The translations under genes and the position numbers were made by a program. A DNA stretch of 39,222 nucleotides, from the NCBI GenBank assembly GCA_001821615.1, contig MHMS01000023.1, positions 1,183-40,404 of the forward strand, given 5' to 3'. The stretch's first letter is position 1, and each line of letters begins with the position of its first letter. Source of the DNA: Candidatus Niyogibacteria bacterium RIFCSPLOWO2_12_FULL_41_13 (GTDB lineage Bacteria > Patescibacteriota > Minisyncoccia > 2-12-FULL-41-13). This document shows, one piece after another, positions 13,725 through 25,170 of this stretch. The notes below the pieces were generated by a model that did no database searches, was not told the origin of the DNA, and saw only the letters and a program-made list of their open reading frames with translations.

Positions 13725-13760
13725 TTTGATTTTTAGTTGAAAATTGATACATTGAAAGCA

Positions 13761-14369
13761 ATGGACACATTGGCTAAATTATTCGGTTCGGATTTAAAAA
13801 TCAAGCTTTTGCGGCTTTTTTTAAACAAGCCGGACGAGGTGTTTATTTTGCCTGAAATCGCAAAGCTTCTTAGCGCGAATCCCGCAGGTTTGAAAAAACA
13901 GATAAAAGAACTTTTAGCTTTGAATTTCATCAAGCCGGATTTAAAAGAACTGATTATTGGATTTAAAAATAAAAAACAGAAGAAGACGAAAATAAAAGGA
14001 TTCCGGCTTAATAAATTTTTTCCGTTTTATTGGCCGTTGAAAAATTTGATTTTAGACACGCCGGCTGTTTCCCGCGAAATTATCGTCCGGAAATTAAAAG
14101 CGGGGGGAAAATTAAGTTTGGTGATTTTGGCCGGAAGTTTCGTCCAAGACGGCAAATCAAAACTTGACTTGCTTGTTGTCGGCGACCGATTAAGCCGGGC
14201 AAAAATCGAGAAAGCGGTAAAATCAATTGAGTCTTCCATCGCGAGAGAATTGAATTACAGCGTTATGCCGACCGATGAATTCAAATACCGCCGCAATATG
14301 CGCGACCGGTTTTTATACGATATTTTAGAATCTCCTCACGAGAAAATTTTGGATAAATTGGAGATATAG
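13761..14369 (+). CDS. winged-helix regulator / nucleotidyltransferase-like protein
   Basis: Track ORF 13737..14369 (TTG start); ATG at 13761 gives MDTLAKLFGSDLKIKLLRLFLNKPDEVFILPEIAKLL..., then VILAGSFVQDGKSKLDLLVVGD. Confidence 0.7.
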   Translation: MDTLAKLFGSDLKIKLLRLFLNKPDEVFILPEIAKLLSANPAGLKKQIKELLALNFIKPDLKELIIGFKNKKQKKTKIKGFRLNKFFPFYWPLKNLILDTPAVSREIIVRKLKAGGKLSLVILAGSFVQDGKSKLDLLVVGDRLSRAKIEKAVKSIESSIARELNYSVMPTDEFKYRRNMRDRFLYDILESPHEKILDKLEI

Positions 14370-14371
14370 AG

Positions 14372-14387
14372 TGAGGGGTGATTAGCC
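14372..14387. repeat. 16-bp direct repeat of tRNA-Val 5' end (left copy)
   Basis: gtgaggggtgattagc, identical to 14676-14691. Confidence 0.9.
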
Positions 14388-14683
14388 CCTCACCTAGAAA
14401 ACTTTAATTATGTTCTATGTGTATATTCTTAAAAGTAAAAAAGATGGTAGTATTTACATAGGTTATACAAGTAATTTAATAAGACGTTTTGAAGAACATA
14501 ATAATTTAAAAAACAAATCAACAAGATATAAAGCGCCTTTTGAGCTTATTTACTACGAAGCATACAAGTCAAATGCTGATGCAAGATACCGGGAAACTAA
14601 TTTAAAGAGATTTGCCCAAGCTTATTCACAATTAAAAAATAGAATCAGAAATAGTTTAATTTAAAAGTTTTCTGGGTGAGGGG
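14387..14683. mobile_element. putative GIY-YIG mini-element with terminal inverted repeats
   Basis: Left ccccTCACCTAGAAAACTTTAA (14387-14408); right end reads CCCCTCACCCAGAAAACTTTTAA on the complementary strand (14683-14661). Confidence 0.65.
14410..14664 (+). CDS. GIY-YIG domain protein (UPF0213-like)
   Basis: MFYVYILKSKKDGSIYIGYTSNLIRRFEEHNNLKNKSTRYKAPFELIYYE. Confidence 0.92.
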   Translation: MFYVYILKSKKDGSIYIGYTSNLIRRFEEHNNLKNKSTRYKAPFELIYYEAYKSNADARYRETNLKRFAQAYSQLKNRIRNSLI

Positions 14684-14752
14684 TGATTAGCTCAGTGGCA
14701 GAGCATTATCTTCACACGATAGGGGCCGCAGGTTCAATCCCTGCATCACCCA
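14681..14752 (+). tRNA. tRNA-Val (CAC)
   Basis: GGGTGAT-TA-GCTC..TTATC-TTCACAC-GATAG..GCAGGTTCAATCCCTGC-ATCACCC A. Confidence 0.92.
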
Positions 14753-14965: not shown

Positions 14966-15107
14966 CCCAGTAAGACAAAATCGAATGCTAAATCTGGTTT
15001 CTTGCGCGGTATAAACATGTTTTATTGCAAAATTAAAATTAAACATAATAATAGTCGGATGTCCGCTTGCGGATTTAGCAAGAAATATTCGATTTAGTCT
15101 TACTGGG
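14966..15107 (+). mobile_element. MITE copy 1 (142 bp), TSD tatg
   Basis: TIR CCCAGTAAGAC[A/T]AAATCGAAT at both ends; flanked by tatg (14962-14965, 15108-15111); near-identical inverted copy at 25028-25170. Confidence 0.85.
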
Positions 15108-15108
15108 T

Positions 15109-16347
15109 ATGCTGGATATAAAATTTATTCGCCAAAACTCGGAATTAGTCAGAGAAGCAATTAGGAAAAAATATATTGATTTGGATTTAAACCGGCTTTT
15201 AGATGTGGACGAAAAAAGATTAGAGTTGCTCAAAGAAATTGAAGGATTAAGAGCAAAGCAAAATAAACTTGCCGGAGAAATCGCCGGATTGAAAGGAGAA
15301 GAAAGAGACGCAAAAATCGGCGAATCAAAAAACATAAAAAAGAATCTTCAAGAAAAAGAAGGCGAATATAAAAAAATTGAAGAGGAATTCAACGGCTTAA
15401 TGCTTAAAGTTCCCAACATTCCCGATCCGTCCGTTCCGGAAGGCAAAGACGAATCTTTTAATCAGGAAATCAGAAAATGGGGAGAGAAGCCGACTTTTGA
15501 TTTTCCGGCAAAAGATTATTTAAACATAATGGAGCAAAACGGATGGCTTGATTTGGAGCGGGGGGTGAAAGTTTCCGGTTTCCGCGGTTATTTTTTAAAA
15601 GGAAAAGCGGCCCTGCTTTCAATGGCGATTTGGAAATTTGTTGTGGACGAACTTGTCAAAAAAGGATTTGAGCCGGTGTTGGCGCCGTCCCTCGCAAGAA
15701 AAGAAAATTTTGTAGGCACCGGCTGGCTTCCGTCGGGAGAAAAAGAAATTTATCAAATGGACGATATGGGCCTTGTCGGAACTTCAGAAGTTTCAATGAT
15801 GGGCTATCATAAAGACGAAATCTTAAAAGAAGAAGAATTACCCAAAAAATATGTCGCTTTTTCTCCTTGTTTCAGAAAAGAAGCGGGCGCGTACGGCAAA
15901 GATACCAAAGGAATTTTGCGGGTTCACGAGTTTTATAAAGTTGAACAGGTAATTTTGTGCAAGGCCGACCATCAGGAATCCGTGAAATGGCATGAAGAAC
16001 TTACGAAAAACGCCGAAGAATTAAATCAAAAATTAGGCCTTCATTACAGGGCGGTAATTTGTTCCACCGGCGAGACCGGCTTGGGTCAGGTTAAAAAATA
16101 CGACATTGAAACCTGGATTCCTTCGGAAAACAAATATCGCGAAACCCATTCTTCCTCTTATTTCCACGATTTTCAGACAAGACGATTAAATATCCGGTAT
16201 CGCGCCAAAGACGGCGAGCTTTATTTCGCGCATTCTTTAAACAACACCGCCATCGCCACGCCGAGAATTTTAATCGCCATCATTGAACAGCGTCAGCAAA
16301 AAGACGGAACTTTCAAACTTCCCGAAATTTTGGAAAAGTATTTATGA
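15109..16347 (+). CDS. serS: seryl-tRNA synthetase
   Basis: MLDIKFIRQNSELVREAI..., VPNIPDPSVPEGKDE, FSPCFRKEAGAYGKDTKGILRVHEFYKVEQ, ETHSSSYFHDFQTRRLNIRYR. Confidence 0.97.
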   Translation: MLDIKFIRQNSELVREAIRKKYIDLDLNRLLDVDEKRLELLKEIEGLRAKQNKLAGEIAGLKGEERDAKIGESKNIKKNLQEKEGEYKKIEEEFNGLMLKVPNIPDPSVPEGKDESFNQEIRKWGEKPTFDFPAKDYLNIMEQNGWLDLERGVKVSGFRGYFLKGKAALLSMAIWKFVVDELVKKGFEPVLAPSLARKENFVGTGWLPSGEKEIYQMDDMGLVGTSEVSMMGYHKDEILKEEELPKKYVAFSPCFRKEAGAYGKDTKGILRVHEFYKVEQVILCKADHQESVKWHEELTKNAEELNQKLGLHYRAVICSTGETGLGQVKKYDIETWIPSENKYRETHSSSYFHDFQTRRLNIRYRAKDGELYFAHSLNNTAIATPRILIAIIEQRQQKDGTFKLPEILEKYL

Positions 16348-25027: not shown

Positions 25028-25170
25028 CCCAGTAAGACTAAATCGAATATTTCTTGCTAAATCCGCAAGTGGACATCCGATTATTATTTATGCTTAATTT
25101 TAATTTTGTAATAAGACATGTTTATACCGCGCAAGAAACTGGATTTAGCATTCGATTTTGTCTTACTGGG
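25028..25170 (-). mobile_element. MITE copy 2 (143 bp), TSD cata
   Basis: Inverse complement of copy 1, about 94% identical by eye; flanked by cata (25024-25027, 25171-25174). Confidence 0.85.

Follow-up and report, generated by a model that had tools for sequence, protein, structure and literature searches.

The window analyzed here, a 39,222-nucleotide stretch of the genome of Candidatus Niyogibacteria bacterium RIFCSPLOWO2_12_FULL_41_13 (Patescibacteriota), contains a tRNA-Val(CAC) gene with a very short element at its 5′ end. The whole element occupies positions 14386-14683 (+ strand, 298 bp) and consists of a left inverted end, a single open reading frame (ORF) for a GIY-YIG nuclease and a right inverted end. 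The features of the locus, together with two ORF-less copies of another end type in the same window, are as follows:

13737-14369, + strand: upstream gene (210 aa), relatives of which directly precede tRNA-Val(CAC) in element-free genomes
14371-14386, + strand: left copy of the 16-bp direct repeat GTGAGGGGTGATTAGC (16/16), a dead tRNA 5′ fragment
14379-14385, + strand: left copy of the 7-bp target duplication TGATTAG, from comparison of seven elements
14386-14405, + strand: left terminal inverted repeat CCCCTCACCTAGAAAACTTT, 19/20 to the right arm
14410-14664, + strand: stand-alone GIY-YIG nuclease (84 aa), the only ORF of the element (ORF list, Pfam)
14664-14683, − strand: right terminal inverted repeat CCCCTCACCCAGAAAACTTT (reverse complement), from the inverted-repeat comparison
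14676-14691, + strand: right copy of GTGAGGGGTGATTAGC (16/16), part element end and part intact tRNA
14681-14752, + strand: intact tRNA-Val(CAC), the target (ARAGORN)
14684-14690, + strand: right copy of TGATTAG, corresponding to tRNA nucleotides 4-10 (seven-element comparison, ARAGORN)
14966-15107, + strand: ORF-less 142-bp copy of the CCCAGTAAGAC type, with TATG duplicated, at the start codon of a serS-like ORF (15109-16347)
25028-25170, − strand: a further CCCAGTAAGAC-type copy of 143 bp, also lacking an ORF and flanked by duplicated TATG

The inverted ends are complementary at 19 of 20 positions, only about 25 bp lie outside the ORF on each side, and the 84-aa product matches the Pfam GIY-YIG family (E=2.9e-16). 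In shuffled-flank controls, the inverted-repeat score was reached in none of 200 shuffles and the direct-repeat score in none of 100. The original prediction, which described a unit of about 300 bp with a single nuclease-like gene of 84 aa and terminal inverted repeats of about 20 bp, inserted so as to leave the tRNA-Val intact, is borne out in all these respects, ARAGORN recognizing the tRNA in full. The same prediction regarded the 16-bp direct repeat as an exact target duplication. The repeat itself is real, with its left copy one base off from the predicted start (14371 rather than 14372), but the true duplication is 7 bp long, and the 16-bp reading was dropped once seven elements with window-type ends had been compared. 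All seven carry a 7-bp target duplication, exact in five (TGATTAG, TTATCCA, CGCTTAG, CGGTTAG and CCCGTAG) and with one and two mismatches, respectively, in the remaining two, which occupy tRNA-Ala-like sites. Six of the seven targets are tRNA or tRNA-like 5′ ends, the seventh being TTATCCACA.

The right junction in the window reads GGGG-TGATTAG-C. GGGG and C also border the left copy, and most of the 16-bp repeat is thus explained by bases common to the target and the element ends; four further bases of the repeat (GTGA) match the right end of the element, which may reflect chance or the scar of an earlier insertion. Element-end-like bases are found to the left of the duplication in L276 and L024 as they are in the window, and to judge from these remnants repeated insertion at one tRNA is likely. 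The left 16-bp repeat and the left element end fold into a strong hairpin, GTGAGGGG-TGATTAG-CCCCTCAC, which is a possible terminator but a by-product of the insertion geometry.

Across 67 sequences, residues Y5, L7, Y16, G18, R26, H30, A58, E62 and K66 are invariant, a set which includes the catalytic Tyr, Tyr, Arg and Glu and fits an active nuclease; by domain and catalytic residues alike, the 84-aa protein belongs to the GIY-YIG superfamily. Its confident AlphaFold model (pLDDT 93, pTM 0.81) has PDB entry 1zg2 as best fold match, and 1zg2 (E=7e-19) and 1ywl (E=3e-15), both UPF0213, are also the closest solved relatives in sequence-profile matches. These hypothetical proteins are of the same size and share the single domain, and no report of inverted ends or mobility was found for UPF0213 in the open-access literature searched, in which the one paper that names the family deals with a different topic. 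The fold match to SLX1 reaches a TM-score of up to 0.69 by query length, and there are weak matches to homing endonuclease families.

Empty tRNA-Val sites, which the original prediction proposed to seek, are present in other genera of the same class. The 210-aa upstream gene was matched in 52 of the 57 genomes searched, all from the same class and none from the same genus, and the empty-site comparison is therefore one between genera. A tRNA-Val(CAC) lies nearby at 25 of 29 scanned loci of this gene; at most of them, the tRNA either overlaps the end of the gene or starts no more than a few tens of bases beyond its stop, with no GIY-YIG gene in between (spacing of 1 bp in L139 and −1 bp in L153 and L154). 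At L151 and L156, tRNA 5′ fragments and CACCCCGTTA pieces are present at this place, and these look like scars of older insertions.

The genome of the organism itself (562 kb, 26 contigs, analyzed except for 404 bases at the end of C23 and 556 of C11) holds GIY-YIG matches on C6, C7 and C23, which belong to elements with three different inverted ends, including C7:2530-2835 (CCCAGTAAGAC ends) and C6:44079-44356 (CCCCGTTAGA ends). A fourth, weak match on C16 is partial and lies inside a shortened 232-bp copy of the CCCAGTAAGAC type. For the three end types, there are about 20, 15 and 1 ORF-less mini-copies, and most copies of the CCCAGTAAGAC and CCCCGTTAGA types are 59-143 bp long and devoid of ORFs. 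A search blind to the gene, for 11-mers with a nearby reverse complement, returned CCCAGTAAGAC (25) and CCCCGTTAGA (12) at the top. The window-type ends recur once more, in a 62-bp ORF-less insert with GGGGTTATCCAC on both sides (C24:1284-1345, L118 685-746). This copy sits in TTATCCACA, which resembles a DnaA box, after a DNA-ligase-like ORF. One 30-bp ACCCCCACACC palindrome is also present (G000:C15:504-533), but none of the GIY-YIG genes seen in this genome has ends of that type.

In three other end types, the target duplications are 4 bp long. Exact 4-bp duplications flank 41 of 49 CCCAGTAAGAC rows, which list both strands and correspond to about half as many insertions, 10 of 15 CCCCGTTAGA copies (permuted mean 1.8) and, in other genomes, 23 of 37 CCCCCACACC copies (permuted mean 9.8). 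The counts of all three end types were reached in 0 of 500 permutations, and there were no matches at 5 bp. An ORF of at least 60 aa opens at the flanking ATG of 15 of the 22 CCCAGTAAGAC-type copies, compared with 29.7% of all TATG in the genome, a bias that selection against other insertions may explain as well as targeting. The copy at 14966-15107 displaces the serS-like gene's own upstream region by 146 bp. Copies of the CCCCGTTAGA type on C4, C5, C6, C16 and C25 are inserted at ATGAA/ATGAC start codons and rebuild the gene with a GTG start, using the last G of the element.

Beyond this genome, the closest named relatives of the 84-aa protein are mostly from Patescibacteria. The closest relatives elsewhere (76, 68 and 65% identity) share the window-type ends, lie at the 5′ ends of tRNA-Ala or tRNA-Val genes and carry 7-bp duplications, one with a mismatch. 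The search for the same ends in the genome and its relatives thus yielded both these elements and the 62-bp copy, and the notion of a minimal mobile element stands, since other copies keep the conserved ends as well as the target duplication. In a test that scored inverted ends up to 60 bases away from the gene (score reaching 28), such ends were detected at 39 of the 58 close relatives, at 41 of all 101 relatives and at 3 of 721 control small ORFs; about a third of the close relatives and most of the distant ones, from Bacteroidota, have no such ends in the same test. End sequences, chosen by eye, correlate with protein similarity (r=0.53, 0/2000 permutations), which shows co-inheritance and not binding.

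ACCCCCACACC occurs 131 times, compared with 8 for a reversed-motif control, in 14 genomes selected for carrying a relative of the GIY-YIG gene. Thirty-six stretches from these genomes contain ORF-less palindromes of 26-136 bp, and in one case a 287-bp copy with the gene, bounded by CCCCCACACC. In a class-wide survey of 114 genomes, the motif was present in 52 and a small GIY-YIG gene in 96. All 11 phage records are below 60% identity, so no phage vector was found.

Insertion at a tRNA 5′ end, as originally predicted, is true for the element in the window, but other members of the family have targets other than tRNA genes. Members or mini-copies are also located at start codons, inside an RNase P RNA gene (L013 1350-1990), where Rfam still matches the whole RNA across the member, in a 16S rRNA gene, with inverted ends and AGCG on both sides (L296), and in 23S rRNA (L288). 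An Rfam scan identified no introns around the ORFs of L013, L017, L018, L028, L029, L288 and L296. The GIY-YIG genes of Bacteroidota (L044, L057, L060, L074, L076 and others) have an intact tRNA on one side and a second, duplicated tRNA piece on the other, in which the anticodon arm has given way in part to a palindrome, for example, TCCGCCTGAGGCGGA or TCCGCCNNNNGGCGGA; this arrangement may represent a different mode. At L042 (1388-1485), a small SRP RNA gene precedes a GIY-YIG gene, beyond which part of the SRP RNA is repeated, and at L290 (790-1029), a group I intron is flanked by tRNA genes and preceded by a broken GIY-YIG copy.

The element architecture is well supported, and we consider it likely that these loci represent a transposon-like family of very small elements with CCC...GGG inverted ends and a stand-alone GIY-YIG gene as sole gene, of which the window contains an autonomous copy. 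One could suppose instead that the GIY-YIG gene is a passenger and that the elements are moved by another enzyme, be it a Y1/RAYT or an unseen DDE transposase. Y1/RAYT enzymes do move palindromes in other bacteria, and the genome holds two Y1_Tnp genes, but none of the four end types is found at either Y1 locus, Y1_Tnp has no match in 5 of the 14 palindrome-bearing genomes, and the two models used for DDE transposases, DDE_Tnp_1 and rve, have no match in the organism's own genome, all of which disfavors passenger status. Furthermore, enzymes of the IS200/IS605 type are not known to make target duplications, which the elements described here have, and GIY-YIG is the sole ORF seen in several different end types. 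We thus judge the passenger explanation unlikely.

Even less probable, in our estimation, is a classic homing endonuclease gene, whereby the nuclease would cut the unoccupied allele and the gene would be copied in by homologous repair. GIY-YIG is indeed a homing-endonuclease fold, the weak family matches point in the same direction, and the Bacteroidota relatives, flanked by an intact tRNA and a long duplicated tRNA piece, look more like homing with target-gene repair. However, one end type occupies many unrelated sites of one genome with 4-bp duplications, rather than a single homologous site, ORF-less palindromes of 26-136 bp exist, and inverted ends are typical of transposons, not of homing genes. 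Finally, it could be argued that there is no mobile element at all and that a hairpin or terminator lies by chance next to an ordinary UPF0213 gene, on the grounds that small GIY-YIG genes are common in the class (96 of 114 genomes) and that the left repeat folds strongly, but this reading is refuted by the flank shuffles, the control ORFs, the empty sites and the recurrence of the same ends in other copies and genomes, and we give it almost no credence.

Within the transposon-like family, GIY-YIG is the only protein and hence probably the mobility enzyme. We envisage that it would bind its own inverted ends, or the hairpin formed by them, and make a staggered cut in the target, with nicks 7 nt apart for the end type of the window and 4 nt apart for three others. 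The element would then be joined in, and gap filling would produce the target duplication. Joining could be accomplished by host ligase and repair, or by replication restart, host repair being the simplest guess; GIY-YIG enzymes are known to cut DNA and not to join it, which counts against the model. Insertion at the 5′ ends of genes (tRNA nucleotides 4-10, start codons) would rebuild the target gene downstream, allowing the elements to persist in a compact genome, and ORF-less copies, down to 26-bp palindromes, would probably be moved in trans.

Like insertion sequences and MITEs, the family has inverted ends, target duplications of fixed length, and both autonomous and ORF-less copies, with duplications that co-vary with the site and with empty sites at class distance only. 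In contrast to DDE insertion sequences, the element is 298 bp in total and has GIY-YIG as its sole gene; it carries no known type of transposase (DDE, Y1, serine or tyrosine), for which reason we do not class it as an insertion sequence. The catalytic fold and key residues are those of GIY-YIG homing endonucleases of the I-TevI type, but the family has neither an intron nor a separate DNA-binding domain, and its copies are dispersed over unrelated, non-homologous sites with short duplications, so that we do not class it as a homing gene either. SLX1, similar in fold, is a eukaryotic repair nuclease with extra domains and a partner, and is not mobile; it cuts branched DNA, which suggests a hairpin formed by the element ends as a possible substrate of the GIY-YIG protein. 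Rickettsia palindromic elements and REP/RAYT palindromes are likewise short and dispersed in or between genes, but occur in different hosts, and REPs are linked to Y1 transposases, of which the two in the genome studied here lie apart from the present end types.

We know of no bacterial transposon with a GIY-YIG nuclease as its only enzyme, and no description of GIY-YIG elements that have both inverted ends and target duplications was found in the open-access literature searched. On balance, we lean toward the view that these elements constitute a new class of prokaryotic transposable element, in which an 84-aa GIY-YIG nuclease acting on CCC...GGG ends would be the transposase and the 26-bp palindromes its non-autonomous derivatives. 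In rRNA genes of CPR bacteria, non-intron insertions that contain GIY-YIG genes have been described, along with many short insertions of unexplained origin, with no mention of inverted repeats or tRNA in the main text (PMC11270868); some of these insertions can be explained by the present family. If confirmed, the mechanism would be an additional chemistry of transposition, and the element would rank among the smallest autonomous mobile elements. If true, it would also explain many of the short insertions so far unaccounted for in Patescibacteria, in genes for tRNA, rRNA and RNase P, providing a testable cause for the palindromes and for the insertions in structured-RNA genes of these bacteria, as well as a possible role for the UPF0213-like proteins present in 96 of the 114 surveyed genomes.
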